A stretch of DNA of 64,000 nucleotides, from the NCBI GenBank assembly GCA_028683385.1, contig JAQUIJ010000020.1:1-64000 (forward strand), given 5' to 3'. A model generated the notes under the pieces. It saw nothing but the letters and a program-made list of their open reading frames with translations. It was not told the origin of the DNA and did not search any database. Positions 31,850-63,952 of the stretch are shown in pieces; position 1 is the stretch's first letter, and every line of letters begins with the position of its first letter. The DNA is from Prolixibacteraceae bacterium. GTDB lineage: Bacteria; Bacteroidota; Bacteroidia; Bacteroidales; Prolixibacteraceae. The translations under genes and the position numbers were made by a program.

Positions 31850-31851
31850 CT

Positions 31852-32867: not shown

Positions 32868-32992
32868 AAGGCTTCAATTTTAAAGGTGAATACTGGGTTG
32901 TTCTTCCCGGATCGGACCTTGATCAGATCATGATCAGGAATTACTTTTCCGAAACCGGGCACCGCAAAATTGAAGGATCGAAAAATATAAAT

Positions 32993-33165: not shown

Positions 33166-33228
33166 AGAGGAAGAAAAAACGGCAAAAAAGAAAAAGAAAG
33201 TCCTTTTCATTGCCGGTTGTGGCAAAAA

Positions 33229-35932: not shown

Positions 35933-35996
35933 AACATTTATCTTTGAATGATACAATTTGAATTCATCCAAAAATCAATATTTCAGAAATACTTTT

Positions 35997-36170: not shown

Positions 36171-36274
36171 AAATAAAAATGATTCTTGTTCTGGGAATCA
36201 GGGATAAAATATCGGAATATTTGTGATACTCAGATGATCTGGCATCCAATCCGAATGCTTATTTATGGTGATTA

Positions 36275-47911: not shown

Positions 47912-48675
47912 AATTGAGCTAATTCTTTGGATATTGTAATGCGAAATTCGGAATCATACGAACCATTACTGACAATATTGCGGTCACCCTCTCCAAGAGT
48001 GACCGAAGATAAATCAAGAAATTGGAACCATTGATGATTTGCTTTTTTCGCCATGTATAAAAATAAACGTTTAACTTTTACCGAACTGCATCCTTCCAAA
48101 AGCTTCTGCAACAAATCCGGCCTTAGATTTACCAATCCGGACATGATTTGATAAACCTCCATGATATCCAACTTTTCCGGAGTAAGGTAAAGACATTCAA
48201 AAATTGCCCTTTCCGCTGAAGAAATGATCAAAGGGAATTGTGTTTCCTGAAATTCATCTATGCCAATCCCTACCGGAAGAAATGATGTCTTGAGGTGGCT
48301 TACTGCTTCATTCCAAGAATATTGTTTAAACCAAGCTGGCAATCTCATATTCAATTGAGAGAATAAATAAGCAGTCTCGGCTCCGGTGCGGATGTAATGC
48401 GAAAATCCCAACATAGATAAAGCTGTTGGACCACCAATGTAAACAGGCAAATTAGCTTGTTTTTGCAGGGAATAAAGTGCACCTTGCCAATCGACAACTT
48501 CATTCGGACGTTTGAATGCACCAACCCCAATTGATTGGAGCCAACTGCTTTTTAAATAACGATGTTGCAGGTCACGCGAGAATCCGTTTGCATCAAGCCA
48601 TGATGCAAGCACTATTGTTCCCGGAACATGCAAATCCAGAAGTTTCTTTAATTTTATTTCATTATTTGTACTCAC
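47908..48675 (-). CDS. AbiEi-family antitoxin/autorepressor
   Basis: A 255-aa partner. It has an N-terminal winged-helix part (about 1-90), a GTG start at 48675 (no nearer ATG fits), and a C-terminal domain with YIGGPTALSMLGFSHYIRTG and SSAERAIFECLYLTPEKLDI. The layout is that of AbiEi antitoxins, which repress their own promoter and neutralise AbiEii without direct binding. The 50-bp gap to hsdR suggests it is read from the same or a nearby promoter. Confidence 0.83.
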   Translation of the reverse strand: MSTNNEIKLKKLLDLHVPGTIVLASWLDANGFSRDLQHRYLKSSWLQSIGVGAFKRPNEVVDWQGALYSLQKQANLPVYIGGPTALSMLGFSHYIRTGAETAYLFSQLNMRLPAWFKQYSWNEAVSHLKTSFLPVGIGIDEFQETQFPLIISSAERAIFECLYLTPEKLDIMEVYQIMSGLVNLRPDLLQKLLEGCSSVKVKRLFLYMAKKANHQWFQFLDLSSVTLGEGDRNIVSNGSYDSEFRITISKELAQL

Positions 48676-48725: not shown

Positions 48726-51700
48726 TTAACCTACTGCATTGTTGTTTACCTGCTCCACAATCCGAATAATCCGGTCTTGATCTTCATCTTCAAAAAGGCC
48801 AAATATACCGTGGTCGTTAATGTCAGTAAATGGTGGTTGTGCTAGTTGAGATAATTCGAGTATTCCGTTATTCTTAAAATGAGTGACTATATTCCGGATA
48901 AACTGTATTTGATCAGCTCTTAGGTTACCAAGATCAATGAATTCAGAAAAGGCAGTTTGTGTTGCTTCCTCGTCCATCCCCAAAATGGAACGGATAAATT
49001 TGCCCAAAGGCTGCTCTCCGTAATGCTTGACAAAGTCATCTTTGGTGCCAAGATGGGAATCTATAAAAACCAGTCTTTCCAGCTCCTGTAACTCAGCAGA
49101 GGTAAGTTTTATATTCTTCCGAAGTTTCTGTATGGTGATGTGGTATATGTTTTCCCGAATGTAACGTTCAACCTTTAATTTGTAATTGTCGCTTTTCCGA
49201 TATCCTCCTTCAACGTCGGTAATCGTATTGATTCCAATCAACTCATCTTCGAAATCAGTCTGGTAGATAACCGTTTCAGTAGCAGGAATATATTTAATGA
49301 GCTGACGGAATGATTCTCTGACAGTCTCCAATTTTAAATGTGTTCTTTCTACCCAGAACTCATCGGTCATAGCAGAACGAATAACATTCTGAACTTTTGC
49401 AACTTCGTGAATATTTAATAAACGCGAAAGCTGATTGGCAATCGTTCGCACTTTATTGCAATAACGTTGCTGAATGACATCATTTTCGACTACAGCCAAC
49501 TGAAAACTCGTCATTAATTGATCAAATCGTTTTGCCTTTTCATCATCTTCCGGAATAAATATCAACTTGGCCAGATGAGTATGTATATTGTGCTTATCTT
49601 CATTCGTCAGTGCATTCCAGTTGTTTCTGTCAGAAAACTGATCAACATGCCGTAATACCATTTTAACGGTAAAACTACTTCTGTTTAAAGCTGAAACACT
49701 TTCGTGCGCCCAATCGAGATATTCAGTTCTTGCTTTTTGGTGGTATTCATCAAGATAGGGGTCTTGTCGAAAAGCTTCAGCCAAACCAATTACATTTTTA
49801 AATATCCGGGCTGACACCGAATCGTAATTAACCGGAACGATCCCTGTTGCATTTTCCTGAAAAAACTCAAAGTTTCGACAGATATCAAAAACATTAAAAA
49901 ACTGTTTATGATCGCCGGGAGCAAACAAATCCTCGCACAAGCGGGTTCCCCGGCCAATCATCTGCCAAAATTTCGCCTTGCTGTAAACGGGTTTAAAGAT
50001 GACCAGATTCACGATGGCAGGCACATCAATGCCCGTATCAAGCATATCCACCGAAACAGCAATCTGCGGTAATTTTTCGACCATTTCAAAATCGTCAATC
50101 AGGTCTTGCGCATATTTCTCGTAGTTGTCGATTACACGTAAAAATTTATTGCTGAATTGCGGATAAATAAAATTGAAGCGTTCTTCAATAAATTCAGCGT
50201 GTGCATGGTTGCGTGCAAATATGATGGTTTTGCCTGTTTTGTCGCCTCCTTCAACACGAACACCTTCATTCATCAAAATGTCCAAAACTTTATCGACGGT
50301 ATCTTCATTAAACAACCAATTATTAATGGCAGCAGGACTAATTGCATCCGGGAGGTTTCCCTGCTCATCCCTGAAGGTTTCTTCGTAGCGAACTTTTTCC
50401 TCCGGCGTTAGTTCATTATATCTGATTCCACGGGTCATGAAACCCAGATCAACCTGCTTCGCCTGAAACGGGACCAGATATTTCTCGTCAACAGCTTCCT
50501 GCAATTCGTAATCAAAAGTTGGAATTCCCTGCTCTTCTTCGAAAAGACGGTAGGTATCGTAATCGGTACTATCCTTGGGCGTGGCCGTTAATCCCAACAT
50601 CAATGCATCAAAGTAGTCGAAAATGGCACCGTATTTTTGGTAAACCGACCGGTGAGCTTCATCAATAATGATTAAATCGAAGTGCCCGACAGAATAAAAC
50701 CGCTGCTCGCCGCTATGAATACCGTCAATGCAGTTCATCATGGTTGGATAAGTGGAGAACACCAGCCGCGTCTCTTTATCTTCTTTTTCTTTGGTTAAAT
50801 CAACCGATGACAAATGAGGTAATAGTTTATTAAAGTTTCGTTTGGCTTGAGTAACCAGCGCGTTACGATCAGCTAAAAACAATACCCGACTGATCCAGCC
50901 TGCCTTCATCAAAACATCGACAAATGAAATAGCTGTTCGGGTCTTTCCTGAACCTGTGGCCATTACTACCAATGCTTTGCGCGAACCGCCTTTTAATCCT
51001 TCTGGTGTGTTTTTAAGATATTTGTCGAGCACACTTTTAATGGCCAGTTTCTGATAAACCCGATTGGTAATGGCGTTATTAATCGTTTGCATCCGTGGAT
51101 CAATCCGATCTTTCCGACGATTGACCAACACTTGCAGCTCGTCCTTGGTATAAAAGCCATGCACTTTCCGGGGCGTATAAAAGCAATCATCCCATAACTC
51201 GGTTTCAAATCCGTTTGAGTAATAAATTACCGGTCGCTGACCAGTCATTCTTTCCAAACAATTGGCATAGAGTTCGGCCTGATGCTTTCCTTCATGAATA
51301 TTTCGTGAAGTTTTTTTCGCTTCAACCAAAGCCAGGGGCAAACCATTGTCACCCCATAACACATAGTCAACATATCCGTTGCCTGTTGGATTCACGGATT
51401 TGGGCATACCTGTAACCGGAAATTCCGTTGCATTGGTCGCATCCGGGTTCCAGCCTGCTTCACGCAACATGGAGTTGATATAAAGTTCACGGGTTTTAGC
51501 TTCGGAATACTGAGCTGCCGGTATGATTACCGGTGAATTTTGCTGTTTTCTGGATTCAGTTAAAGCAAACTGCGCTTTAATTTTCCTAAGTTCTTCTTCT
51601 ATTTCCAGACGTTTTTTCCGTTCACGGTTGGCAATTTCAATTTGCCCGGTATTCTCGTCTTCCAATCGTTTGATCTCGGCCTGTGATTTTTCCTGATTTC

Positions 51701-52127
51701 CGATTTCCGGAATAAATGATTCATCAAATGCAGCAATTTCCGGCGGAGTTTCACTATACATTTTCACTGTCCAACTCAGAAATCGAAACAAAAAACGGAC
51801 GCAGGGAACACTTACTTTCGAGGATGATTTGCCCTGATGTGCAGCTAAATTCCCTTCCCTCCGGATAAAGTCAATATCGCGGTAAATAGATGGTGGTATG
51901 ATTTCCTTAAAGGTTTGCTCTCCCAAGCGTGCAGCTAGGTTGCTGTTATATGGCTGATTCAGACATCCTTCGTTTTCGTAGAGCCAATTCACCATTTTTT
52001 CGAGCGAAAGGCGGGCATAAAAAGCTGATGTAACCGGTGCTGTTTTAGCGCTTTGTTCTGCTTCAAAAGCCGATTGATAAAGGAAATCCCATTCGTTCTG
52101 AAGGAAGTGGAAATTTGAATTAGCCAT
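48726..52127 (-). CDS. hsdR: Type I restriction endonuclease subunit R
   Basis: A 1133-aa restriction and translocation subunit. The N-terminal DUF4145-type helical domain (about 1-125) has YARLSLEKMVNWLYENEG and REGNLAAHQGK. A nuclease of PD-(D/E)xK type follows with Asp254 and the E269-A-K271 pair. The helicase core has Walker A ATGSGKT at 390-396 and DEAH at 489-492; motif VI is in IGRGTRLCEDLF. The C-terminus resembles EcoEI-type subunits. It needs the HsdM and HsdS proteins encoded 4-7 kb upstream. Confidence 0.94.
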   Translation of the reverse strand: MANSNFHFLQNEWDFLYQSAFEAEQSAKTAPVTSAFYARLSLEKMVNWLYENEGCLNQPYNSNLAARLGEQTFKEIIPPSIYRDIDFIRREGNLAAHQGKSSSKVSVPCVRFLFRFLSWTVKMYSETPPEIAAFDESFIPEIGNQEKSQAEIKRLEDENTGQIEIANRERKKRLEIEEELRKIKAQFALTESRKQQNSPVIIPAAQYSEAKTRELYINSMLREAGWNPDATNATEFPVTGMPKSVNPTGNGYVDYVLWGDNGLPLALVEAKKTSRNIHEGKHQAELYANCLERMTGQRPVIYYSNGFETELWDDCFYTPRKVHGFYTKDELQVLVNRRKDRIDPRMQTINNAITNRVYQKLAIKSVLDKYLKNTPEGLKGGSRKALVVMATGSGKTRTAISFVDVLMKAGWISRVLFLADRNALVTQAKRNFNKLLPHLSSVDLTKEKEDKETRLVFSTYPTMMNCIDGIHSGEQRFYSVGHFDLIIIDEAHRSVYQKYGAIFDYFDALMLGLTATPKDSTDYDTYRLFEEEQGIPTFDYELQEAVDEKYLVPFQAKQVDLGFMTRGIRYNELTPEEKVRYEETFRDEQGNLPDAISPAAINNWLFNEDTVDKVLDILMNEGVRVEGGDKTGKTIIFARNHAHAEFIEERFNFIYPQFSNKFLRVIDNYEKYAQDLIDDFEMVEKLPQIAVSVDMLDTGIDVPAIVNLVIFKPVYSKAKFWQMIGRGTRLCEDLFAPGDHKQFFNVFDICRNFEFFQENATGIVPVNYDSVSARIFKNVIGLAEAFRQDPYLDEYHQKARTEYLDWAHESVSALNRSSFTVKMVLRHVDQFSDRNNWNALTNEDKHNIHTHLAKLIFIPEDDEKAKRFDQLMTSFQLAVVENDVIQQRYCNKVRTIANQLSRLLNIHEVAKVQNVIRSAMTDEFWVERTHLKLETVRESFRQLIKYIPATETVIYQTDFEDELIGINTITDVEGGYRKSDNYKLKVERYIRENIYHITIQKLRKNIKLTSAELQELERLVFIDSHLGTKDDFVKHYGEQPLGKFIRSILGMDEEATQTAFSEFIDLGNLRADQIQFIRNIVTHFKNNGILELSQLAQPPFTDINDHGIFGLFEDEDQDRIIRIVEQVNNNAVG

Positions 52128-52204
52128 TTATTCAGGTTTAAGTCAGAATCTTAAAGCCTAAAATTAAGATAATATTGTTAAAAAGCATTCTTCCTAAAAT
52201 AATT

Positions 52205-52711
52205 TTAACTTTTATCTTTCTCGGAAGACAAAGCAGTATCTACCCGATCATAGATAATTTTAGTTTGTTTCCGATACGAAAGAATCAAGAAAACAAACAA
52301 TGCTAATACAATTGCTAATTTCGCAAACCCAGCATTCCAATCAAACTTAATCCCTGTCATGTCATAAGCAATGAATACACATAGAACCAAAAACATCGCT
52401 GCCACAGACCGGAACATATTATTGGTTTCGGAATGAATTTCAATTTTGGCATCCAAGGTTTTTGCTTTGTTGAAATCTTTCAAAGGTTGGAATACAACTA
52501 ATTTGGTTTTTCTTAAAATTGGTTCAATGCAAAGTGAACCAACTCTATTTATAAGCATACCAATGAAATAATAAAGAAAAACACCTTCCAAAACATTCTC
52601 TTGCAAAAAGTGAAAATTTGTGGCCTTATCGAGCAAAACCACAAATAATACTCCAGGAAATAAGTAATTGAAAAGGTTGTAGGACGAGATTTTATTGATA
52701 AGATCATTCAT
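52205..52711 (-). CDS. Four-helix membrane protein of the E2-E1-JAB cassette
   Basis: A 168-aa integral membrane protein with helices at about 13-28 (LFNYLFPGVLFVVLLD), 42-58, 100-115 and 128-145, and a cytoplasmic loop and tail rich in Lys/Glu. It starts 3 bp after the E2-E1-JAB stop, so the two are co-translated. It resembles small membrane proteins used as effectors or anchors in defence operons, but no family is certain. It may be the membrane-acting output of the cassette. Confidence 0.65.
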   Translation of the reverse strand: MNDLINKISSYNLFNYLFPGVLFVVLLDKATNFHFLQENVLEGVFLYYFIGMLINRVGSLCIEPILRKTKLVVFQPLKDFNKAKTLDAKIEIHSETNNMFRSVAAMFLVLCVFIAYDMTGIKFDWNAGFAKLAIVLALFVFLILSYRKQTKIIYDRVDTALSSEKDKS

Positions 52712-52714
52712 GTG

Positions 52715-54922
52715 TCATGGTTTAAAAATTATAGTACAATCGTTATCACCTAATATACCCATTAAAACAGGGGAACCCTGCCGCGACATTTTATTATACA
52801 GATATTCGTACAATTTAAAATCATAAGTACTTGGATTAGTTGAATACCCTTGTGGATGAGAATGCCATTCTCCCAAATAACACAACTGATTATCAACAAC
52901 TTTAAGATATTCATTATATTCGTCGAGTAACCCTTCTACTCCACGTTCAAATGTGGACTTATCTTCAATACTATCAGGCGGCGCAAATAAAGAATCACAG
53001 ACATAAATTACTTTCCTCTGAAAATCATAGGAGCCAATTAATATGCCGCCTGTTTCGTTCGGCAATTTAGAGTATCTAAAAGATTTCATCCGGTCGAGCA
53101 ACCATAAATCAAAATACATCTTCCATTGGCCAACATCCTTCCGTATCCATCTTGTTGGTTCGAACGAATATTTCCTGACTTCAAATGTTGTTTTATCAGC
53201 TCTCCAAATTGAGATTGTTGGCTTACCATTCTCTATGATTGACTTTAACGCCTTTGTGCAGATAGATGCATTCAGAGCAACGTCTGTTTGATTTATCCTA
53301 TTTGTTATTTCTCTGCAACTATTACGATTATATCGAACTTTCAGTGAATCATCATATTTCAAGTGATCATGCAACGATTCTTCCTGAAACAGGCATCTGT
53401 AGTATTGCATTTCCAAAAAATCCAATCTGAATTTTCGATGTTTATCTTCAGCTAAAACAACCAGATCAGTGCCATCAGGATTTAGAAAAGATGAAATACG
53501 AGGAGTTTTAATTGCTTCATTGTAATCCCTCGCCAGTGTTCGGGCAACAGCAATTGATGTTGACATATCAATGATGGCCTTTGCATCCTTAAGCTTTGCT
53601 ATTACCGAATCATCTTCTTTTATCGTAAGAAAATCCGAATTTATTGGCTTTGCAATTTCCATCCGATGCAATTCATTTGCTTTTTCAGATACCTTAATCG
53701 CTTTATTGTAACCGACCGATTTCCGGTCTAGTGTGTGTTTGGCTAGATTGTGGGGATAAAGATTATCATGATCGATAATGGTCCATGTGCCAAATCCCAT
53801 CCTTACAAATTGATCAAATACCTGTGATCCCAATGCCCCTGCGCCAATTAAGATAAAAGGATTATCATTTTTTTCAATGTTATTAAAAAGTGCTGACGTG
53901 GAAGGATTAAAATCGAGCATTGAAGAATATAACTCAATAGGAATATTATTAATCACTTCCAGATCAAATTCCTTATTGATGATTGGGACTATCGCACCAT
54001 CTTTTTGAAACAAACACCCTGATTTCTCGCCTAAATCAAGAATGCTCTGGTTTGTTAAAAAAAAGAGGTATTCCCAAGAGGATGGTTCTACATCATCCAC
54101 ATGTCTTTTAACTGGTATCAAACCATGAAATGCCAGTTTATCCTTGACAAGTTTTTGATTTTGTAAAAACTCTTTTAATCTTACATTTAGTATCCTATGT
54201 AAGAAAATCGGGAAAGAGGTTCCTTCAATCTTAAAGATGCCTGCAATATCAGATAGAATCTTTGGCTGACACCTGATAAAGCCATGTGTTTGAGGATCGG
54301 ATTTAAACCCAAACATATGGAAAGGAGATTGACCGTCTGGTTCAGTGCTTAATTCAAACAGGTTTGATTCACCAATTCGGTTTAAGTGCGTGTATTTTTC
54401 AGGATCATAGGGATTCGTTAATAATACATACCCTTTTGAAAAAAAGAACGGTTCCAATGGTTGATCTTCCTGATGTAACTTTCCCTCCGATGTTAATGAA
54501 AACCACCTAAAAATATATCCGAGAAATTCAAATTCAGTTAATCTGTGCTTTGCTTCAGTGAACGACTGTTCCGTCACACAAAGAGCTACCGGATGCTCGA
54601 AGGGGCTAAGATAAGTATGAGGTAACCCTCCTTCAAAATCTTCGCGCAAAGCATATACCTCTGGAAAAGCATTGTCATTCTCAGAACAAATAATCGCGAT
54701 ATCCTCATAAACCTGAATCCCATTTAAAGGATTTTGAGGAATCTCAATATCCAAAGTCACAAGAATAACCTCACAGCCATCAGCTCTGCGCTTACATACC
54801 ATTCTTTCATCCAAACAATAAGAATGCTGCTGAATAGCAAAAGCTAAGTTCTTAGCTCTTGCTATTTTAAATTCAGCAGGTTGTATTTCTGCACCTTCAA
54901 TTATTGGATAGGAATAATTCAT
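52715..54922 (-). CDS. E2-E1-JAB triple fusion (bacterial ubiquitin-like conjugation)
   Basis: A 735-aa fusion. N-terminal E2-like domain (about 40-170): the loop PHTYLSPFEHPVALCVTEQ places a candidate catalytic Cys115. E1/ThiF domain (about 340-580): nucleotide loop GAGALG (360-365), IIDHDNLYPHNLAKH with acidic and basic adenylation residues, and candidate E1 Cys at 536 in RNSCREIT. C-terminal JAB/JAMM peptidase (about 600-735): Glu623 in NETGGILIG, His687 and His689 in GEWHSHP, Ser698 and Asp701 in STYD. All three activities look intact. It is flanked within 3 bp by an MBL-fold gene and a membrane-protein gene. Relatives are Cap2/Cap3 of type II CBASS and Bil systems; no CD-NTase or ubiquitin-like gene is nearby. 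Confidence 0.9.
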   Translation of the reverse strand: MNYSYPIIEGAEIQPAEFKIARAKNLAFAIQQHSYCLDERMVCKRRADGCEVILVTLDIEIPQNPLNGIQVYEDIAIICSENDNAFPEVYALREDFEGGLPHTYLSPFEHPVALCVTEQSFTEAKHRLTEFEFLGYIFRWFSLTSEGKLHQEDQPLEPFFFSKGYVLLTNPYDPEKYTHLNRIGESNLFELSTEPDGQSPFHMFGFKSDPQTHGFIRCQPKILSDIAGIFKIEGTSFPIFLHRILNVRLKEFLQNQKLVKDKLAFHGLIPVKRHVDDVEPSSWEYLFFLTNQSILDLGEKSGCLFQKDGAIVPIINKEFDLEVINNIPIELYSSMLDFNPSTSALFNNIEKNDNPFILIGAGALGSQVFDQFVRMGFGTWTIIDHDNLYPHNLAKHTLDRKSVGYNKAIKVSEKANELHRMEIAKPINSDFLTIKEDDSVIAKLKDAKAIIDMSTSIAVARTLARDYNEAIKTPRISSFLNPDGTDLVVLAEDKHRKFRLDFLEMQYYRCLFQEESLHDHLKYDDSLKVRYNRNSCREITNRINQTDVALNASICTKALKSIIENGKPTISIWRADKTTFEVRKYSFEPTRWIRKDVGQWKMYFDLWLLDRMKSFRYSKLPNETGGILIGSYDFQRKVIYVCDSLFAPPDSIEDKSTFERGVEGLLDEYNEYLKVVDNQLCYLGEWHSHPQGYSTNPSTYDFKLYEYLYNKMSRQGSPVLMGILGDNDCTIIFKP

Positions 54923-54923
54923 A

Positions 54924-56069
54924 TTATCTTCCTGCTCTAGGTGCTGAACTACTTATAATTCCAATAGCGGCAGCACTCTCAACCTTTGTCAGTTTGATGC
55001 CATCGTCCTCTATAATAAACTCTAGTGGTTCAGGAGCTTTTGAACTTTTATTTATTGCCGTATTCCGAAAGTATCCGGCACCTACTTTTTTGACATACTG
55101 CTCTTTTGCCTGATGATGGGGAGGATTGTTATCATCATCTTCAATTTTAAGACATGAAGCAACAACATATGCATTGCCTTGCTTATAATCCAATAATTCT
55201 AATGCATAATCTTTCGGAGTTGAATTATTTTTATACGGTCTATCATTAAAGAATGACCATGAACAATGATGTGGTGATAAAAAGATATCCCACTTCAATT
55301 TATCCTGATTATTGTTACTCTCTGAAATTCTCAAAACCTTTTCCCAGATATAATGGTCGGCGTCACCTCCAAAGAAAGCCCGTGTTTTAATGCTTCCACC
55401 CTTCGTTAATCGGAATGAAGCCTGAAAAACAATGCTTGTCGAATTATGGTCCTTTTCGGCCTTTCCAATTACCAAATCACTTTTGAATGGAGCATGAATA
55501 AAAAACTCGATATAGTCAGAAACTTTTCCATTGAATTTATTGACTATATCGCTAGGAGCATAATGCAACCCTTCAACAGTTTTGTCCTGGTCATTATAAC
55601 CAATGATTCGCATTCGGTTACCATACGTATCAGCTTTCTTCGGATCATCCTCAAAAAGTTGTCTTCTACGTTTGGCCTCTTTACGAATTAATATTGCATG
55701 TTGGCAAACATCATGTAAAAAGATTTGTTGAGTAACCCACAACTCACCAATAATAATTTCATCTTTCTTTCTGTTATCATCCGAATAATCAGCCGGATCA
55801 CCGCAATAGTAATTATTTTCGAATCCGAGGCAGTGATCTTTATGTGGATGCGATAGTACAAATAAATCAACGAAAGGATTCTTATTGCTGTCCTTCTTCA
55901 ACTCCTTCAAAAGATCCTTTTTGACATCGTAAATTTTCACTCCACTTGAGTTTTCTTCTCCATCCCGAATCTGGCAGTCTATCTGAATTGTTGAGTCATC
56001 ACTTAACTTTATTAAAGTGTTGTCGGCGTTATCGACAGGGTAATATTTAATTATATGCTTTTGCGTCAT
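54924..56069 (-). CDS. MBL-fold hydrolase of the E2-E1-JAB cassette
   Basis: A 381-aa metallo-beta-lactamase-fold protein of the ComEC-like class. Metal ligands are His74, His76, Asp78 and His79 in LSHPHKDHCLG; a later Asp is in FFGGDADHYIW and a His in LSPHHCSW. No signal peptide or membrane helix is present, so it is cytosolic. The tail after the last strand is small-residue-rich and ends SSSAPRAGR, unlike an MBL core; it could be a tail that the neighbouring E1/E2 conjugates or the JAB trims. It ends 1 bp before the fusion gene. Confidence 0.85.
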   Translation of the reverse strand: MTQKHIIKYYPVDNADNTLIKLSDDSTIQIDCQIRDGEENSSGVKIYDVKKDLLKELKKDSNKNPFVDLFVLSHPHKDHCLGFENNYYCGDPADYSDDNRKKDEIIIGELWVTQQIFLHDVCQHAILIRKEAKRRRQLFEDDPKKADTYGNRMRIIGYNDQDKTVEGLHYAPSDIVNKFNGKVSDYIEFFIHAPFKSDLVIGKAEKDHNSTSIVFQASFRLTKGGSIKTRAFFGGDADHYIWEKVLRISESNNNQDKLKWDIFLSPHHCSWSFFNDRPYKNNSTPKDYALELLDYKQGNAYVVASCLKIEDDDNNPPHHQAKEQYVKKVGAGYFRNTAINKSSKAPEPLEFIIEDDGIKLTKVESAAAIGIISSSAPRAGR

Positions 56070-56202
56070 TTTAGTTTTTTTTATGGGGTTTGGGTCCCCG
56101 GTGAATAATCCATACCTTCCCTCTTTTGATCACTCGGAGAGGTCAATTAAAACCGAATTCGCAATTTTTTAGGGAGGGAGGGTGGATAATGAAGAAAAGA
56201 TC

Positions 56203-56303
56203 TATATTTGCAGCCTCATTTGGAAATTCATCGAGGTGGTAAGCCTCGATCCGCCGGCAAGCATTTTTCCAAATCCCAAGTCGCTTACGAAGGCGACTTT
56301 TTT
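56203..56303 (+). ncRNA. Compact structured small RNA with own promoter and terminator
   Basis: TATATTTG (56203-56210) is a perfect TANNTTTG -7 box. About 8 nt later ATTTGGAAA (56218-56226) pairs with TTTCCAAAT (56266-56274). Inside, ATCGAGG (56230-56236) pairs with CCTCGAT (56244-56250). An intrinsic terminator AAGTCGC/GCGACTT plus TTTTTT (56278-56303) follows. It is antisense to the defence operon in the 413-bp gap between hsdS and the MBL gene. The rest of the gap has no gene. Confidence 0.65.
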
Positions 56304-56482
56304 ATTTCAATGTTTCTTACCTTTTTCGTTTTTTATAATTTCTGGTTCAACTTTACAATTGCTGTACCACTGTTAATATTTGTTAAAAATCGGCATTTTG
56401 TCAGTCGCATTATTTCTCTGTTGACAGTTTATCAAATGCGACATTATGCCGTGTCATATTATGTAAGAATCTAAATATATTA

Positions 56483-57655
56483 CTACAATTCTCCATCAAA
56501 CGCTTTTTGCACCAACCCGTTAAACAAATACTCACTCTCCTGCAAACTTTGTTTCACCAATGTTTTTTGCGCTTCAATGTTCTCAACAATTTGGGCAAAT
56601 TGGTCTTGAAGTTTGATTGGAGGACAAATTATCGTTAGTTTTTCAAAATTTGATTTTATAAGTAACTTTTTCATTCCTTTCGTCGCTGCATCTTGTGTTA
56701 CTTTTTTTGAATATTGCATTACTGAATACAAAAAGTACGAATTACATTTCTTTGGAATAATTGCATTAATCTGTTGATTGAATGCAACTTCTCTATTTGT
56801 GATAACACAATTTCCAATTGAGCTCAAACTACCAGCAATACATGTTACTAAAATGGAACCAACAGGAGCTACTCTTCCCTTTTTCATCCCAACCTCTGAT
56901 AAAAATTCTCGTGAATTAGTTGGATAAATAATTTCTGAACTAATATTATCAGTCTTGATCCACTCAATATAATTTCCATAGTTCTCCGGGGTTGCTCTTG
57001 GTGGAGTATTTCCTGTAACGACGTTCCCTATTTCTTTAATCAGTTTCTTTTCCCATCCTTTCGAATTGGTTACCGGGTCGCCAAACATATCCAGAAAAGT
57101 AGCCTGCAACAACTCATCGTAGGTAGCCAAAAGTTGTTTGTTTTTCAGGCGCAAAGCATCGGCTTTATCGAGTATTTCGGCAATGCGTTTTTGTTCTGGA
57201 AACGGAGGAAGAGGGATTTGGATTCTATCTAAGTATTTATCCAATTGCAAGTTAATTATCCCTGTTGTTTTATTTTGGAATTTCAACGTAATACCCAACT
57301 TATGCAATGAAAATAAGAAATAGAAGAGATATTTTGGAAAAACCAAATCATTTGATCTTAGAATTGCAGTGAAGTTATTACAAAGGAAGACTTCATCTTT
57401 ACGATCAAAATAAACCACTCTACCAACTGGTTGACTTGGACTGCCACCGGATTTTTCAATAATAACATCACCTTGAACTAATTTTTTCCGCTCAATTACT
57501 TTTTCTGGTATATCCCGGGTCACTACATTCGAATAATCGATGACCCCATCATTTGTAAAATTGGTAGTTCTCAGAACATTGACCTTTTCTCCTTCATCGC
57601 CCCAATCTCCGGTGATTTTTTCAGAAATTACCTCATTTAAGAATAAATATTTCAT
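56483..57655 (-). CDS. hsdS: Type I specificity subunit S
   Basis: A 390-aa subunit with two target-recognition domains. TRD1 (about 1-155) is followed by the conserved IPLPPFPEQKRIAEILDKADALRL coiled coil in two parts. TRD2 starts near 205 (KGWEKKLIKEIGNVVTGNTPP) and ends with a second helix pair (DQFAQIVENIEAQKTLVKQS). It sets the sequence cut and methylated by the HsdR/HsdM enzyme. The start ATG overlaps the hsdM stop by 4 bp. The exact target cannot be read from sequence. Confidence 0.9.
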   Translation of the reverse strand: MKYLFLNEVISEKITGDWGDEGEKVNVLRTTNFTNDGVIDYSNVVTRDIPEKVIERKKLVQGDVIIEKSGGSPSQPVGRVVYFDRKDEVFLCNNFTAILRSNDLVFPKYLFYFLFSLHKLGITLKFQNKTTGIINLQLDKYLDRIQIPLPPFPEQKRIAEILDKADALRLKNKQLLATYDELLQATFLDMFGDPVTNSKGWEKKLIKEIGNVVTGNTPPRATPENYGNYIEWIKTDNISSEIIYPTNSREFLSEVGMKKGRVAPVGSILVTCIAGSLSSIGNCVITNREVAFNQQINAIIPKKCNSYFLYSVMQYSKKVTQDAATKGMKKLLIKSNFEKLTIICPPIKLQDQFAQIVENIEAQKTLVKQSLQESEYLFNGLVQKAFDGEL

Positions 57656-59202
57656 CCCAGCAATCCTCCCAATTCGTTCATCAATTGCTTGCGTTCTTCA
57701 TCCATTTTGCTAATTCGCTCAATGATAACTTTGGGGGCTGTGTAGTTTACCTGTTCGTGTACAATTTCCTGGTAAAGGTTAAACGAAAGGTTGTAGTTTT
57801 CGGCACGGATTTCATCGGCTGTAACAAAGAATTGCTGGGCAGTTCTATCCACTTCGACAAGCTCAGTGACCGTTGCTCCGCTCGCTATAACGTGGAACTT
57901 TTCAATAATATCAGGGATATTGTTTTCCTCCAACTTGTAGTTTCGCATCGAAGGCAAGTCAGGATTGTCTTCATCGGGTTTGCCCAACAGTTCCCGTTTA
58001 TCGTCCAACGAATAGCCATCGGCTTTCATATCGTAAAACCAAACGCGGTTGGTGCCGCCGGTTCCGGTTTTTGTAAAAAGGAGAATAGCCGTAGCAACTC
58101 CGGTATAAGGTTTGAAAACCCCGCTTGGCATCAAAATTACGGCTTGTAACTGGTTCTCGTCAACCAACAGTTGGCGAACGGCCAAATGGCTTTTGGTGCT
58201 TCCAAACAGCACACCTGCCGGAACAATTACAGCGCAACGTCCGCCCGGCTTCAGCATGCGCAGCATAAGCGAAACGAACAACAATTCGGTTTTGGCTGTT
58301 TTTGCTCTCTTGCCCAAATCGAGTGACTTTTTCAGGCTCAGTTCAATGCCATCGTAATCGGCAGAACCCGAAAATGGTGGATTGGCCAATATCAGGCTGT
58401 ACTTGTCTTTCACCGTGTTGTCGTTCGACAGCGCATCCATGTATTTCAACTTCGGATTGTCGATGCCGTGCATTTGCAGGTTCATGGCGCTAATCCCCAC
58501 CATGGTATTGTCGCTTTCGAAACCGCTGAACATACCATTGTTGAAATGCTGGCGGAATTCTTTCTTGTAAAATTCATCGGGGTAATGCTCGCGCAGATAC
58601 TCGACCACACCAACCAAAAAACCCGCTGTTCCGGCAGCCGGATCGCAAACCAATTCGTCGGTTTGCGGTTGCAGCAAGTCAACCATCAGGCGAATAATAT
58701 GCTTGGGTGTACGGAATTGTCCGTTTATTCCAGCCGTTGCCAGCTTCGAAAGCAGGTATTCGTAAACATCTCCTTTTGAGTCAATATCATCGATTTTCAG
58801 TTTGTCGATCATCTGCACAATACGATCCAACAACTTGGGGCTATTGATATCGAAATTGGCATAGCGCATCGTTTCGGCAAACAGTCCACCTTTTTGACCA
58901 ATACTTTTAATGAAATCGAACACGCCATCTTCTTTGCGGAAAAGCCGGAACATCTGCTCCGGATCTTTGGTTTTGAAAACATTCCAGCGCAATTCCCTCT
59001 GTTCTTCGAGGTAAATTGGATCTTGAATCGGCATTTTCAGTTTATTGGCCTGTTTCTCTTTCAGCTCCTGCTGCCTGTCCAGATTGCGAATAAAAAGCAA
59101 ATAGGTAATCTGTTTAATGATGCTCAAAGGGTCAGTCATCCCATTTTGCCAGAACTCTTTCCAAATTTTATCAATGTCAGTACGTTGTTGCCCTGTAAGC
59201 AT
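57652..59202 (-). CDS. hsdM: Type I DNA methyltransferase subunit M
   Basis: A 516-aa N6-adenine methyltransferase. The HsdM N-terminal helical bundle is at about 1-135; motif I DPAAGTAGFL is at 187-196 and motif IV NPPF at 274-277, both intact. The TPKHIIRLMVDLL entry helix precedes motif I. It is the first gene of the hsdM-hsdS pair, with a 21-bp near-palindrome at 59327-59347 in the 150-bp gap upstream that also precedes the methylase-kinase gene. Confidence 0.94.
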   Translation of the reverse strand: MLTGQQRTDIDKIWKEFWQNGMTDPLSIIKQITYLLFIRNLDRQQELKEKQANKLKMPIQDPIYLEEQRELRWNVFKTKDPEQMFRLFRKEDGVFDFIKSIGQKGGLFAETMRYANFDINSPKLLDRIVQMIDKLKIDDIDSKGDVYEYLLSKLATAGINGQFRTPKHIIRLMVDLLQPQTDELVCDPAAGTAGFLVGVVEYLREHYPDEFYKKEFRQHFNNGMFSGFESDNTMVGISAMNLQMHGIDNPKLKYMDALSNDNTVKDKYSLILANPPFSGSADYDGIELSLKKSLDLGKRAKTAKTELLFVSLMLRMLKPGGRCAVIVPAGVLFGSTKSHLAVRQLLVDENQLQAVILMPSGVFKPYTGVATAILLFTKTGTGGTNRVWFYDMKADGYSLDDKRELLGKPDEDNPDLPSMRNYKLEENNIPDIIEKFHVIASGATVTELVEVDRTAQQFFVTADEIRAENYNLSFNLYQEIVHEQVNYTAPKVIIERISKMDEERKQLMNELGGLLG

Positions 59203-59352: not shown

Positions 59353-60258
59353 TTATTTTCGTTCGTCAATAAATTGTTTTAACCAAATCAATATATCGAA
59401 AGTAGCCCAAAGGACAGATTTAAAAGTATAAGAAGAATATTTTTGAATATCGTGCGAGGCTGGATGACAGACTTTAATAATGGTTTGGACTTGTTGTGAT
59501 AGATGATCTTCCCAATATTTGCGGCGTTTGTATTCTATACTTTCCCTATCAACTCTGATTGTAACAGCCAATCCAGACAAATATTTGGAACAATTTACAA
59601 GTCCAACTCTTTGGTCATCAAAATTCAGGAGAGCATACGGCAAAACTATTTCATCCACCTCATTAATTTTCTCAAAGACTCGTTCCAATAAAATCCGACA
59701 AGGATTAAAAAGGAGGTCCTCGGGATTAGTCAACTGATCATTTTCCAATACCTGAATAATACTCAGGAGAAGATTCTCATATCTTCTATCCAGATATTTT
59801 GAACCAAAACACTGAAACGGTTCGGGATATTGATTTATGATTTTGAGTTTAGGCGTTTTTTCAATTTCAGTTTTCAAAAAATCTAAAACCTGAGCTTCAG
59901 AATTTGGCCTCTTCTTAAACATTTTTCCGGCAGCCAGTTCTTCTGAAAATGTATCAAGGTCATCATAATAGGCGGTATGAATAGCATAAGGAATAATTCT
60001 GTTTTTGCCTTCTTGTTTACTAACCCATTTAAGTGCTTGCTGTAAATGTGCTTCAGATTCTTGCCGGTCAGCGGTTAGTTTTCCTTTGGCATCTAATATC
60101 AAACCGTCCACTCCCTCAATGCTTTCGAGATATTGTTGAGCCAGATCCCAGGTTTCGAAAACTTCAATATTCACATTCTGTCCTGCCGAAGCATCCTGAA
60201 AATTTTCCAGAATCCGGTGGTTATCGTCAACAACTACAATTAAAGGTTGATAGTTCAT
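59353..60258 (-). CDS. Receiver-domain protein with HEPN-like C-terminus
   Basis: A 301-aa protein. The receiver domain (1-120) has acidic pair D11/D12, phosphoacceptor candidate Asp56 (VDGLILDAKGK), Thr95 and Lys115/116. The C-terminal half (about 155-301) is helical with NPCRILLERVFEKINE near 186-200 and KVCHPASHDIQKYSSYTF then LWATFDILIWLK near 262-295. This order resembles HEPN/DUF4145-type helical domains, some of which are RNases, but a canonical R-x4-6-H motif is not clear. Its ATG is 1 bp from the end of the methylase-kinase gene, so they form one unit: kinase then receiver. Confidence 0.72.
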   Translation of the reverse strand: MNYQPLIVVVDDNHRILENFQDASAGQNVNIEVFETWDLAQQYLESIEGVDGLILDAKGKLTADRQESEAHLQQALKWVSKQEGKNRIIPYAIHTAYYDDLDTFSEELAAGKMFKKRPNSEAQVLDFLKTEIEKTPKLKIINQYPEPFQCFGSKYLDRRYENLLLSIIQVLENDQLTNPEDLLFNPCRILLERVFEKINEVDEIVLPYALLNFDDQRVGLVNCSKYLSGLAVTIRVDRESIEYKRRKYWEDHLSQQVQTIIKVCHPASHDIQKYSSYTFKSVLWATFDILIWLKQFIDERK

Positions 60259-60259: not shown

Positions 60260-62884
60260 TTATTGTTTTTGAGGGATAGTAATTACGATATCAACGTTAG
60301 CTTTAAAGTCAAAACTTCCGTCTTTAGTTTTGACCTGAAAACTGGATGGTGGCATAAAACTGATTTGCCCGCTATGGTTTTTCGTTACCTTATTAATCAA
60401 AAATCCACCAATTCCCTGGCCCGAACTTTTCCCGGATTTTCGGGAAAAACCAATAAAATCTTCTAGTGTAAAATCAGCAGGCAAAGGTTCGCCATTATTC
60501 ATGAAATGAATCTCAATTTTATTCTCTATTAAAACTAAGTTGATAAGAATTTTTAAGCTTTCATCAACTGAGGTGTTACTGTGATTCACTGCGTTTGAAA
60601 AAATATTGGTGATAATGTGCTCAAATTGCATTTTATCAATTTCTGCTGGTATGTGTCCAGGATTTAAATAGCTACCATTAGTACCTATAATAAAATCAAA
60701 TCGTTGGTGATCTTTAAGTTGGTCAAATTTTTTACGCATGAAATTTGCCAGATCGGTTTTCTCGGGTCGAAAAAAAGATGATTCTGCCAGCAGGATTCCT
60801 TCCATATTTGCCATGATCTGATAAACTTTGTCAATATCATCTTTTGCACTTTGAATTCTTTCACCTATAGGCCTGGCTTGGTTATGACCAGAGGATGGAA
60901 CATCTAATTGAATTTGATTACGCTCCAAAAATTGAGGGAGAAGATTTAGAAATCCATCAGGACCTTTCAGTATATTCCCAATTTCATGATTAATGGTTTT
61001 GAAAATGGCAACATCAGTGATAGTTTCGGTATCTTTCTTCGCAGAAAGTGATTGTTCCTGAACATATTCGCTTCTTTCCTTGCTTATTCTGATTTGATCA
61101 TCCAATGAAGGGAGTTTAATTTTAACCTTCAAAAGATCTTCAAGTCTCAAATGTTTCAAGGTCGTTGATCCAAGCGATAAAAACTCCATTTGCTTCTGAA
61201 CGTATGCCGAATTCAATTCCTGAAGCAAATATTCATAGTGCGCTTTTCCCGGAATAATTTTAAGTGCAACGATATTGGTAGACAATTCAACCGGAGTGGC
61301 TAATCTGTACCAACTCGGTTTTGAACTCCCGCCAACAGTACCAATTAAAAAAGCTTGTTCACTTAATATTTTGCCCTTGGTACGGCTTTTATTATTCGAA
61401 AGTCTGTTTATTTCATCAATAGACCCCCCATTCAAATCGGTAATCCTTAAATAAGGCAAAGCAGTTCTATTGTTTACAGGCAATTTTAATTGAGTTATTA
61501 ATTTCCCTAATTCTATATAGCCTGATTCCTGTGGTTGAATGTATTTGATGAAGTAATCATTCAGATTCAATGAAAATCCTTCGTTTTTTAATTGCTGAAA
61601 ATCAAATTCCAAGGATTCCGGAATACCATATTGAGCTTGGTCTTCATGTATTAAGTTTGGATGAGAAGAGCTTTCGATTAGATCGACAATTTTATCAATT
61701 TCCAATGAGACTGACTTTTCTCTTGTAATTGAATAAAACTGTTTCGAAGATGCGTCAATAAATCGAACAGCCTGATGATCAACTCCTTTTCGAAATATTA
61801 ACAGACTGGATTTAACTGAAGTTGTTGGATAAAAAAGATTTACTGGAAGAGAAACAATTGTATGAATTAATCTGCTTTCGATGATTTCCCTTCGGAACCT
61901 GTTGTAATCACGTGAGGTACCAAAAAGTACTCCATCAGGAACCAGAAAGATTGCCATTCCATTTCCCCGAAGTTTTTTTAATGAGCTAGAAATAATATTT
62001 AAAGCTAAATCTTTATAGGCTAAATTGTACCTTTCATAGATATTAACCTTTGACATAAATGGTGGAATAGAAACAATAAGATCAAAAGAAGATGATCCCA
62101 AATGCTCAATTTCATCCAATGAATCAAGATTGTTGAAATTTAGCTCAAATCCATTTGTTCTTGCAAATAGTTGTCCAATTTTATAAACTTCCTTATTAAT
62201 TTCAGAAGCTACAGCCATGATTTCAAATCTGGAGCTTACCTTTATTGCTGTCATCAATTTCAACATTCCAGCAGCAGGATTATAAACCCTGAGAGATCGG
62301 TTTGTTGGGATAATCTGACAAATCAATTGAACTAAAGTAGTTGGCGTTGTGAAAAGTTCCCGTACACCACTTGACGAGTTAATGTAGTATTCGTAAAATT
62401 CTCGTGAAAAAGAATAAAATTCTTTAGAATCAAGCTTTTCAATCCATCCAGAATCAAAGAAATGATTCATTGCACGAACGAAAGAATCTCCCAATAGCAT
62501 TGCGATCTGTTCTATTTCAAATAGATTATGATCCTCTATTTCAGAATATTTTCTGTTTTTAATAAAATCTAGGACCTCTTCTGGTACTAGTTTTGGAAAT
62601 TGCCTTCTTAAAAAGAGATAAAATGCTCCTGAATAAAATACGTCTTTCTGATTTGCACCTGTATTCCGAATGAACTTCTCCAATATGCTAATGAAATGTT
62701 GAAGTGGATATTTCAATAAGGTAATAGTTTCACCATCGAATGTTATTAGGTTCTTTTCATTTTGCAAAAAATCCAGAATGGTTTGGCGACCATATTTTTT
62801 ACTTAAAATATCAGTGATCTTATCTAAACTTAGTTGACCATTTGTATTTTGAAGAATCTTCTCGATTGACTCTGAAAGTCCCAT
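60260..62884 (-). CDS. Degenerate N6-methylase-TRD-histidine kinase fusion
   Basis: An 874-aa fusion. An HsdM-like N-terminal bundle (about 100-190) is followed by a methylase fold (about 195-400). Motif I reads YNPAAGML (202-206) instead of DPxxGTG, and the motif IV position reads SIPPF (272-276) with Ile273 in place of Asn. It is therefore probably not a working methylase. An HsdS-like target-recognition domain is at about 455-600 (YLRITDLNGG, LKHLRLEDLLKVKIKLPSLD). Then comes a phosphoacceptor-like helix INHEIGNIL with His633, an ATPase N-box ITNIFSNAVNHS (Asn764) and G-box GQGIGGFL (822-829). It looks like a DNA-sensing kinase. The neighbour is its receiver. Confidence 0.82.
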   Translation of the reverse strand: MGLSESIEKILQNTNGQLSLDKITDILSKKYGRQTILDFLQNEKNLITFDGETITLLKYPLQHFISILEKFIRNTGANQKDVFYSGAFYLFLRRQFPKLVPEEVLDFIKNRKYSEIEDHNLFEIEQIAMLLGDSFVRAMNHFFDSGWIEKLDSKEFYSFSREFYEYYINSSSGVRELFTTPTTLVQLICQIIPTNRSLRVYNPAAGMLKLMTAIKVSSRFEIMAVASEINKEVYKIGQLFARTNGFELNFNNLDSLDEIEHLGSSSFDLIVSIPPFMSKVNIYERYNLAYKDLALNIISSSLKKLRGNGMAIFLVPDGVLFGTSRDYNRFRREIIESRLIHTIVSLPVNLFYPTTSVKSSLLIFRKGVDHQAVRFIDASSKQFYSITREKSVSLEIDKIVDLIESSSHPNLIHEDQAQYGIPESLEFDFQQLKNEGFSLNLNDYFIKYIQPQESGYIELGKLITQLKLPVNNRTALPYLRITDLNGGSIDEINRLSNNKSRTKGKILSEQAFLIGTVGGSSKPSWYRLATPVELSTNIVALKIIPGKAHYEYLLQELNSAYVQKQMEFLSLGSTTLKHLRLEDLLKVKIKLPSLDDQIRISKERSEYVQEQSLSAKKDTETITDVAIFKTINHEIGNILKGPDGFLNLLPQFLERNQIQLDVPSSGHNQARPIGERIQSAKDDIDKVYQIMANMEGILLAESSFFRPEKTDLANFMRKKFDQLKDHQRFDFIIGTNGSYLNPGHIPAEIDKMQFEHIITNIFSNAVNHSNTSVDESLKILINLVLIENKIEIHFMNNGEPLPADFTLEDFIGFSRKSGKSSGQGIGGFLINKVTKNHSGQISFMPPSSFQVKTKDGSFDFKANVDIVITIPQKQ

Positions 62885-62921: not shown

Positions 62922-62946
62922 AACTGTGCAGTCATTCTGCATAGTT
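62922..62946 (-). promoter_or_regulatory. Near-palindromic operator upstream of methylase-kinase gene (site 1)
   Basis: AACTGTGCAG and CTGCATAGTT form an inverted repeat with one mismatch around TCATT. It matches site 2 (59327-59347) at 18 of 21 positions. It lies between the WYL gene stop and the methylase-kinase ATG, giving about 40 bp to the start codon. Confidence 0.68.
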
Positions 62947-63952
62947 AAGTGTATTTCTCTTTAAGTTGAATTATTCGATCCTTAACTCGTTGACGAAGTA
63001 TTTCCGGACTAATAACTTCAATCTTTTCAGCATGAGAAAAAATTACTGCCTCCAGTTCAAAGTTAGGTATAACCTGGAGTTCGATGATTGTATATTTTGA
63101 TGTTTGCTCTTTGACTTTCTGGGAACCGTGTATAGGTTTCGTTTTGATATAAGGCCAACTATCAGTATCAATTTTCAAAATGACTATATCTGCTATGCCA
63201 TCATAAGGAACCGAAACACCAACAACATCTTCAAAATACTCTTCAAAATTAATTTCCGTGTTGGGTTGAAATACTTCGGAAACAGGCTGAATTAGCTCAA
63301 TCCGGTCGAGTGCAATGGTTGTAACAGTTTTTGCATCTCCACTTTTTCCAAATAAAAACCATCGGTTATTATATTGCTTCAGGAAGTAAGGATGCAAAAC
63401 CATCAGGATAGATTCATCACGTTTAAAAGGATGATATTTAATTTTCAGAGCTTGTTTGTTGATTATTGCATCATATAAAGCTCCTATATGTTCTTTACCT
63501 GTCAAATATTGATTTTCTTCAAACTCAATGACCTTTTCCTGACTTTTTAACCTGAAGCTTACTTCTAAACGGGCTTTCATCTCATCAACCCATTCGAACT
63601 GTGGTAACCCTTTGAACCGGGATAGGGTCATCAATGATTCTTTCAACTGTTGAGCTTCCCTTTCATTTAAAGGCTGATTGTTTATTGAATAAGACAAATC
63701 GCTATAACGATAATATGCTTTTTTCCCATCTTTAAATGATTCTATTGGTGCATCATAACCTTGCGAATCACGCATAAACTTAATATCATCAAAAAGTTGT
63801 CGCCTTTTTATACCAGTTGAATTTGGATCAATATCTAGCAAAGATTTGTTACAGGCTTCAATTAAATCATCTATGTAATAGATCCTTCCTGGATTTCGGA
63901 AACATTGATTAAGTGCCTGATACCGGATGGCGGCATTTTTATTGGTAGCCAT
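62945..63952 (-). CDS. WYL-domain transcriptional regulator
   Basis: A 335-aa regulator with an N-terminal winged helix (about 5-75: RYQALNQCFRN, IKRRQLFDDIKFMRDSQG), a linker, then a WYL domain (about 150-230: ALKIKYHPFKRDES, HPYFLKQYNNRWFLFGKSG and TIALDRIE). The C-terminal WCX extension (about 255-335) is present. Such proteins (BrxR/CapW-like) repress defence operons and are relieved by nucleic-acid ligands. It is the first gene of the island and the best candidate binder of the 21-bp operators. Upstream DNA runs off the window at 64000. Confidence 0.88.
   Translation of the reverse strand: MATNKNAAIRYQALNQCFRNPGRIYYIDDLIEACNKSLLDIDPNSTGIKRRQLFDDIKFMRDSQGYDAPIESFKDGKKAYYRYSDLSYSINNQPLNEREAQQLKESLMTLSRFKGLPQFEWVDEMKARLEVSFRLKSQEKVIEFEENQYLTGKEHIGALYDAIINKQALKIKYHPFKRDESILMVLHPYFLKQYNNRWFLFGKSGDAKTVTTIALDRIELIQPVSEVFQPNTEINFEEYFEDVVGVSVPYDGIADIVILKIDTDSWPYIKTKPIHGSQKVKEQTSKYTIIELQVIPNFELEAVIFSHAEKIEVISPEILRQRVKDRIIQLKEKYT

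Follow-up and report, generated by a model that had tools for sequence, protein, structure and literature searches.

A degenerate type I methylase body joined to a histidine kinase, with a receiver-domain partner: a probable interchangeable two-component switch of defence operons

The window analysed here, a stretch of 64,000 nucleotides from a Prolixibacteraceae bacterium (Bacteroidota; positions 1 to 64,000 of contig JAQUIJ010000020.1, assembly GCA_028683385.1), carries on its minus strand a gene for an 874 amino acid (aa) protein, called here the kinase protein, in which a type I-like methylase body and one HsdS-type target-recognition domain (TRD) are followed by a histidine kinase; the next gene starts one base downstream and encodes a response regulator. 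This kinase and receiver pair, which stands beside varied antivirus operons, looks like an interchangeable switch, and it is probably a mobile two-component front end of such operons, with the co-opted methylase body as its input and with phosphotransfer and control of the operon as its mode of action. The domain make-up, the co-occurrence of the two genes, the conserved phosphotransfer residues, the lost constraint on methylation and the exchange between defence systems are all read from sequence comparison. The first-pass annotation of the kinase gene had described a dead methylase fused to a recognition domain and a kinase, and proposed a protein that reads DNA sequence, perhaps its methylation state, and signals by phosphorylation; it did not mention the regulator.

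Domain organization of the kinase protein and its partner

The kinase protein matches the Pfam families N6_Mtase (aa 164–445, E = 2.7e-23), Methylase_S (aa 471–603, E = 9e-7) and HATPase_c (aa 750–847, E = 3.3e-8), all above the curated cut-offs, and a profile of 48 sequences including that of the window finds type I M subunits (best E 1.8e-50), S subunits (5.7e-16) and histidine kinases (2.1e-12) in the PDB over successive stretches; the kinase matches extend across the stretch around H633, the predicted phosphoacceptor. The HsdS-like recognition domain and the C-terminal ATPase of the first-pass annotation are thus borne out by sequence matches, and its H-box-like INHEIGNIL lies at aa 631–639 around that histidine. 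A pair of hypervariable recognition domains like that of HsdS was not found; by Pfam the kinase protein has one such domain, which is not hypervariable. Its NCBIfam matches all lie under their cut-offs, and PADLOC gives domain-level matches only, to methylase and specificity models.

The AlphaFold2 model of the kinase protein has a mean predicted local distance difference test score (pLDDT) of 73, with blocks mostly at 75–95 in the methylase and recognition domains, mostly at 45–69 in the N-terminal 180 residues and at 44–82 beyond residue 610. Its best 50 Foldseek matches include type I M subunits and single-chain methylase-TRD enzymes, with template modelling (TM) scores of 0.33–0.63 by target length and a poor whole-chain superposition. 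The 301 aa response regulator has no Pfam match; its model (pLDDT 88.6) consists of a receiver and then a helical domain, and both Foldseek (target-normalised TM up to ~0.78) and a profile search of the PDB find receivers.

Conservation of the phosphotransfer residues

Homologues were taken from genome samples, one plasmid (of Myroides) and 61 named loci, which by their titles are Bacteroidota together with one Fibrobacter metagenome-assembled genome. The compared set of 73 kinase proteins, that of the window included, is made up of 18 that were not motif-selected and 55 from the scan for the pattern [VI][YF]NP[FH][AT]G that gave the 61 loci, so that the motif I statistics of the scanned loci are by construction. 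Six duplicate loci (L084, L101, L120, L132, L138 and L140) were removed before counting, near-identical pairs from different records (L044/L133 and L075/L076) were retained, and the pairwise counts below (recognition-domain pairs, segment identity and the HsdM control) use pairs that are not independent. Counting full-length-type matches, the kinase protein is present in at least 9 of 296 genomes of a phylum sample and at least 11 of 395 of a class sample; these are lower bounds because few candidates were scored per genome, and the two samples share three positive genomes. Plasmid records with a match number 466, and among the 30 listed only three, from Myroides odoratimimus, cover 76% of the kinase protein, most of the others carrying the annotation type I subunit M. 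None of 12 pattern matches in viral contigs is related to the kinase protein, in a search by the degenerate motif I that would miss other branches. Two homologues have unusual frames: one of 1463 aa (L135, 7502–11893) has 811 residues ahead of motif X (the family median is 140), and the L098 homologue is split between two frames (658 and 110 aa).

All 72 scoreable kinase proteins retain H633, and in the ATPase boxes N764, G798, G824 and G826 are each kept in 70 of 70; positions 633, 764, 798 and 824 are also kept throughout the sequences that were not motif-selected (18/18, window included). In the receiver, D12, D56 and K116 are invariant in 69 of 69 regulators, position 11 is Asp (67) or Glu (2), with Thr (46) or Ser (23) at position 95. 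In all 69 scoreable loci one of the first two open reading frames (ORFs) after the kinase gene encodes the regulator (three more stop at a contig end), the gap between the two genes is −35 to +7 bases in 66 of these (22, 52 and 376 in the others), and the similarities of kinases and of regulators go together closely (Spearman 0.84, n = 68, P = 0.001). Since the very next gene encodes a receiver protein with every key residue in place, the signalling side is stronger than the first-pass annotation had claimed.

The output end of the regulators is more varied. By length, 50 of the 69 have an extra C-terminal stretch that the window regulator lacks. In this stretch a 50-regulator profile finds cold-shock proteins (best E 4.9e-4), and with E values allowed up to 1 the S1CSD-TOTE-2 family is matched by 13 of the 50 (best 2e-6); the longer relatives probably have a CSD/S1-like tail. 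The S1CSD domain of TOTE conflict systems is the Pfam family that most regulator members match at this stretch. One relative's regulator, which stands before McrBC genes, ends in a Schlafen AlbA_2 domain as its output (L040, 2438–3385). The assignment of the helical output domain as HEPN/DUF4145 was not adopted: HHalign against the DUF4145-bearing N-terminus of 16 HsdR proteins gives a collinear alignment of 91 columns with P = 0.0079 and a probability of only 5% (six column shuffles give 0.14–0.43 and the reversed alignment 0.35), and DUF4145 is matched by one of 50 regulators (E = 0.057). The domain is perhaps DUF4145/HEPN-like, a suggestive but weak resemblance.

Loss of the methylase constraint

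Translation of the window gene confirms the degenerate motifs reported at first pass, with YNPAAGMLKL as motif I (NPAAGML in the first-pass annotation) and SIPPF as motif IV, where Ile replaces the catalytic Asn. The companion HsdM proteins have the motif I Asp in 60 of 60 and NPP[FY] in 60 of 60, one further row being a fragment; DP and NPP[FYW] occur together in 58 of 61 rows, and one of the remaining three is a fragment. Among the kinase proteins, 4 of 72 scoreable sequences have the motif I Asp and 37 of 73 the motif IV Asn, and the two never occur together (0/72); all 37 proteins with the Asn have the motif I Asp replaced. The corresponding counts among the 18 that were not motif-selected are 4/17 and 5/18. 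In L037–L039 most of motif I is gone, and on a quick tree of 70 kinase proteins, built without a mixture model and with the window row flagged as a long branch, the state of the motif IV Asn has changed at least 16 times.

The window copy has very likely lost methylase catalysis, since Ile replaces Asn in motif IV and motif I is altered as well, and to this extent the description of a dead methylase stands; catalytic death is not proven for each member of the family, 37 of which keep the motif IV Asn. An Asn present in 37 of 73 proteins and changed at least 16 times, set against invariant phosphotransfer residues, indicates that the kinase chemistry is conserved and that methylation is not required: to judge from the alignment, selection acts strongly on the kinase residues but does not maintain the catalytic Asn throughout the family.

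Genomic context and exchange between defence systems

Among the three ORFs that precede the kinase gene, 57 of the 72 homologous loci have a WYL gene (54 on the same strand, 3 divergent), and HsdM is encoded within five ORFs downstream in 53 of the 72. With the window included, type I genes are downstream in 55 of 73 loci, upstream on the same strand in 3 and on the opposite strand in 1; none are seen in 10, and 4 are unscored (three contig ends and L135, where the regulator is next, yet beyond the distance limit). Of these ten, L096 and L098 stop a short way downstream, and the contig of L085 closes with a short stretch resembling the start of HsdM. Kinases that are 67–78% identical accompany different HsdM families, whose members are 22–33% identical to one another where they can be aligned; the 58 HsdM proteins fall into ten clusters. 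More distant kinases precede McrBC or a Gabija/OLD-like set. Two other kinds of gene were met in these loci: reverse transcriptase genes lie a few genes after the kinase-regulator pair in L131 (17335–18438) and L040 (7410–9080), in both of which type I genes are unseen, and two adjacent GmrSD-type genes lie downstream of hsdS in L041 (323–4530), another kind of cargo.

Proposed mechanism and points against it

Phosphotransfer, control of the operon, the nature of the signal (an anti-restriction decoy, S-adenosylmethionine (SAM) or DNA) and the output are inferred. The kinase and receiver proteins would form a two-component switch that moves as a unit, mostly with a WYL regulator nearby, and that is placed beside defence operons; in the window the operon is that of a type I restriction system with a 6A-MBL cassette inside it. 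The methylase body and its one recognition domain would have been co-opted as the input module; a signal, sensed most probably at the fast-evolving N-terminus and the methylase face, would be relayed to the helical region after the recognition domain, where H633 would be autophosphorylated. The phosphate would then move from H633 to D56 of the regulator, whose output domain would make the adjacent defence genes more strongly expressed or more active.

Several observations weigh against this mobile two-component reading. In the kinase protein the Pfam search finds no HisKA domain, H633 is followed by Thr or Ser in 45 of 72 proteins, and the ATPase boxes, called intact at first pass, are so in their N and G boxes but have Asn (NNG) at the adenine-binding D-box position in the window and in 71 of 71 scoreable sequences, a conserved variant of the textbook DxG. 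HisKA kinases usually have an acidic residue directly after the phosphoacceptor His. AlphaFold2 draws helices at residues 594–655 and 673–702 around H633, with pLDDT blocks of 52–68 over 611–660 and below 50 at 616–621; one continuous helix from the recognition domain to H633 is weakly supported because pLDDT is low over 611–660, and confidence in the modelled kinase part is low to modest overall (44–82 in 10-residue blocks). No recognised DNA-binding domain is present in the window regulator. In seven loci type I genes are not seen although some 7 kb or more of downstream sequence is available; in the four with annotated neighbours (L039, L040, L129 and L131, as opposed to L081, L088 and L142) the downstream genes are AAA_15, PLD-like, radical SAM and UvrD genes with PADLOC matches to Gabija/OLD-like systems (L039), AAA_5 and then McrC, hence McrBC (L040), a PLD-like gene (L129) and a helicase (L131). 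Matrix correlations of the kinase with HsdM (0.17, P = 0.019) and with HsdS (0.15, P = 0.042) are weak and nominal, and that with the WYL protein is not clear for the whole kinase (0.15, P = 0.056); taken alone, the methylase part gives 0.22 (P = 0.008) and the recognition part 0.25 (P = 0.004) against the WYL protein. Compared with the kinase-regulator value of 0.84, the 0.15–0.17 for neighbours suggests that the pair is an exchangeable unit with some residual linkage to the genes around it.

Nature of the input signal

In 90 of 95 pairs with a kinase-domain identity of at least 0.70, no segment is less conserved than the N-terminal 160 residues, and in the two upper identity classes the N-terminus has median identities of 0.31 and 0.41, compared with 0.67 and 0.71 in the first half of the methylase body. 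In the HsdM control (main cluster) the contrast between N-terminus and methylase core is much smaller, 0.81 vs 0.87 in 149 close pairs and 0.46 vs 0.59 in all 465. The net charge per 100 aa of the methylase body is +0.4 in the kinase protein and −2.3 in HsdM; that of the recognition domain is 0.0 compared with +1.9 in HsdS halves (P = 0.00018), with +5.3 in the window copy, and DNA binding by the kinase protein is possible to judge from these charges. The acidic residue of motif II is a ribose contact; it is Glu in 68 of 72 kinase proteins and in 13 of 17 scoreable ones that were not motif-selected, in which Gly206 of motif I is found in 14 of 17. In motif X, Thr has become Gln in 46 of 73 kinase proteins, and the companion HsdM proteins have Thr in 60 of 60. 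These data suit a decoy or a cofactor sensor better than a reader of target-specific methylation, and none of them is decisive.

The idea of the first-pass annotation, that the module binds the target of its own HsdS and signals when the site is unmethylated, is improbable. The fold does agree, at modest TM, with the single-chain methylase-TRD enzymes CamA and M.BseCI, and the methylase domain more basic than HsdM and the charge of the window recognition domain leave DNA binding open to it; however, the HsdS of the same locus ranks first for the kinase recognition domain in only 1 of 56 cases, with a median rank of 25 (permutation P = 0.43), and no preference for the HsdM of its own locus is seen in the methylase body (n = 59, P = 0.97). 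Kinase recognition domains are also far less variable than HsdS halves, recognising each other at E < 1e-3 in 2458 of 2628 pairs compared with 1096 of 5940 for the halves, which were taken at set cut points and pooled without regard to whether they came first or second; kinases that resemble one another also stand beside different restriction-modification (RM) types. Sensing of own-locus methylation was rejected on these grounds, namely no covariation with HsdS, low variability of the recognition domain and similar kinases beside different HsdM families, as was an origin of the methylase body in the HsdM next to it, for lack of any own-locus preference. What stands of the DNA-reading, signalling protein first proposed is a methylase body with no further need of catalysis, joined to a kinase with strictly conserved key residues in a defence operon; the reading of the site or methylation of its own system is unsupported. 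Neither of the two refuting findings named at first pass turned up, since no scoreable sequence combines the motif I Asp with the motif IV Asn (0/72) and the C-terminus matches HATPase by sequence.

Three other inputs, a decoy, a cofactor and a fixed DNA site, are alternatives within the two-component reading, and so not all rivals to it. The one favoured here, if only tentatively, is a decoy or guard, in which the module imitates a type I methylase and is turned on by the binding of a DNA mimic (Ocr or ArdA, for instance) with which a phage counters restriction. A methylase fold retained without catalytic need, a fast-evolving N-terminus and a module independent of the RM type alongside are all in keeping with this, and the top Foldseek match, perhaps by accident and with a poor whole-chain superposition, is 7eew, the crystal structure of a type I methylase together with Ocr; however, the module also precedes McrBC and other systems, where guarding a methylase is a less obvious need. 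That the old cofactor pocket is retained as a sensor of SAM, S-adenosylhomocysteine or a related nucleotide, and reports loss of the cofactor in infection, is doubtful: the motif II Glu and the conserved change in motif X speak for it, but the Glu and Gly206 are less constant among the sequences that were not motif-selected, 68 of 72 lack the motif I Asp (in part an effect of how the pattern scan selected its loci), and L037–L039 are without most of motif I. Quite doubtful, too, is a DNA-bound kinase that reads a fixed site of its own, for example in its promoter; the recognition domains do form one recognisable family across loci, with a basic residue at the K522 position in 70 of 73, but they are less basic than HsdS halves. 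Chance fusion or a decaying pseudogene with no signalling role might account for the degenerate methylase motifs and the split frame of L098, and is highly improbable in view of long open frames in dozens of genomes and the invariant kinase and receiver residues.

Conceivable, too, is a transferable phosphorelay immune sensor, in which a methyltransferase freed from catalysis serves as bait, anti-restriction proteins or cofactor-destroying enzymes trip the kinase and the downstream operon fires; like the decoy input, this is a tentative picture. If the bait reading is true, this would be a bacterial guard or decoy system made from a two-component pair. Few sensors are known that switch on defence operons during infection, and since the pair is found next to defence systems of different kinds, with a single predicted phosphoacceptor in each partner, two point changes would put the proposal to the test. 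It would also be an example of a DNA methylase turned receptor.

Relation to known systems

Type I HsdM/HsdS and single-chain methylase-TRD enzymes such as CamA and M.BseCI share the fold and the order of methylase and recognition domains with the kinase protein, but the latter has an unconserved catalytic Asn, an added kinase domain and only one recognition domain, without hypervariability. Histidine kinase and receiver proteins also serve in Detocs and other two-component-like defence systems, and the Detocs kinase is not known to have a methylase or HsdS-like domain. PADLOC matches the methylase part to mad2 (4.2e-19) and the recognition part to mad5 (4.3e-8) of MADS, the methylation-associated defence system, but the NCBIfam scores are far under their cut-offs (25.1 vs 720 bits for MAD2 and 19.2 vs 400 for MAD5).

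The nearest functional precedent found is CapK/CapS, in which, according to the part of the paper available, a kinase activated by single-stranded DNA and its substrate control adjacent, diverse immune operons (EMBO J 2026, PMC13373217). As in the window, a kinase and its partner are encoded beside diverse immune operons, and the claim at first pass of a new logic for defence is accordingly softened. The available text describes CapK as a helix-turn-helix (HTH)-STAS-GHKL kinase and CapS as a STAS-winged HTH repressor, whereas the present pair is a methylase-TRD-kinase protein and a receiver-domain regulator, with no STAS or HTH domain in either (Pfam, E up to 0.1). BrxR and CapW are WYL regulators of defence, and the accessible text on them has BrxR homologues co-localising with type IV (37/210) and type I (34/210) enzymes (PMC9122601). 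A WYL gene is likewise upstream in most kinase loci, but that text, as far as it was available, contains no kinase or two-component terms, whereas here a two-component pair stands between the WYL and defence genes. RptR is, by its abstract (PMC12255303), also a dedicated regulator of a type I RM operon with an embedded defence module; it is a small transcriptional repressor, and the abstract has no kinase or methylase part.

A literature search, with bioRxiv and most subscription papers outside its reach, found no description of the kinase protein, nor is it described in the available portions of PMC12839542, PMC13092281, PMC7159879, PMC7641849 and PMC9122601. The DefensePredictor paper (PMC13092281), in the part available, has HATPase and REC among its figure abbreviations, and an earlier prediction of the pair there is possible. 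What appears new is the probable two-component front end with a methylase-recognition input module, without precedent in the literature searched; the regulation of immune operons by a kinase and its partner is of a known kind.

Features of the locus and neighbouring genes

Table 1. Features of the kinase-regulator locus (window coordinates)
Feature	Position	Strand	Basis
Pseudo-methylase/recognition-domain/histidine-kinase protein (kinase protein), 874 aa	60260..62884	-	ORF; Pfam N6_Mtase, Methylase_S, HATPase_c; homologues
N-terminal ~160 aa of kinase protein, fastest-evolving segment	62405..62884	-	Close-pair comparison; HsdM control much weaker
Pseudo-methylase domain, aa ~165-445	61550..62392	-	Pfam; PDB profile matches to type I M subunits; Foldseek
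Degenerate motif I YNPAAGMLKL, aa 201-210	62255..62284	-	Alignment; companion HsdM Asp 60/60
Degenerate motif IV SIPPF, aa 272-276, Ile at catalytic Asn	62057..62071	-	Alignment, quick tree
HsdS-type target-recognition domain, aa ~455-603	61076..61522	-	Pfam Methylase_S 471-603; PDB S-subunit matches
Helical stretch aa 594-702 with H633, taken as dimerisation/phosphotransfer region	60779..61105	-	AlphaFold2, low confidence; H-box-like pattern
H633 codon, predicted phosphoacceptor	60986..60988	-	Invariant, 72/72 scoreable
HATPase (catalytic/ATP-binding) domain, aa ~735-870	60275..60682	-	Pfam HATPase_c 750-847; PDB kinase matches
Response regulator, 301 aa: receiver aa 1-133, helical output domain aa ~136-301	59353..60258	-	Model; PDB receivers; invariant residues
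D56 codon of response regulator, predicted phosphoacceptor	60091..60093	-	Invariant, 69/69
WYL-domain regulator, 335 aa, upstream of kinase gene	62945..63952	-	Pfam WYL and WCX
HsdM, type I modification subunit, motifs intact	57652..59202	-	Pfam N6_Mtase, HsdM_N; PADLOC MTase_I 1.3e-160
HsdS, type I specificity subunit	56483..57655	-	Pfam Methylase_S, two stretches
MBL-fold protein of anti-phage 6A-MBL system, embedded cargo	54924..56069	-	NCBIfam NF058524, 359.8 bits vs cut-off 220
E2-E1-JAB protein of 6A-MBL system, embedded cargo	52715..54922	-	NCBIfam NF058523, 511.2 bits vs cut-off 320; Pfam Prok-E2_A, ThiF, Prok-JAB
168 aa protein, PADLOC candidate PDC-M48A, embedded cargo	52205..52711	-	PADLOC 1.1e-55
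HsdR, type I restriction subunit, N-terminal DUF4145 domain	48726..52127	-	Pfam; PADLOC REase_I 2.3e-155

The cargo of the type I operon (48726–59202) is a 6A-MBL ubiquitin-like anti-phage cassette (52205–56069: the MBL protein, the E2-E1-JAB protein and the PDC-M48A protein) nested between hsdS and hsdR; a literature search on 6A-MBL found no paper. Directly after hsdR lies an AbiEi/AbiEii type IV toxin-antitoxin pair (46991–48675), which extends the defence island. Ten ORFs scanned at 24764–37126 include TraM, TraG and RteC genes, those of a Bacteroides-type conjugative transposon, so that the defence island may be transposon cargo. Adjoining these transposon genes, at 37481–38230, is an orphan short N6_Mtase protein of 249 aa.

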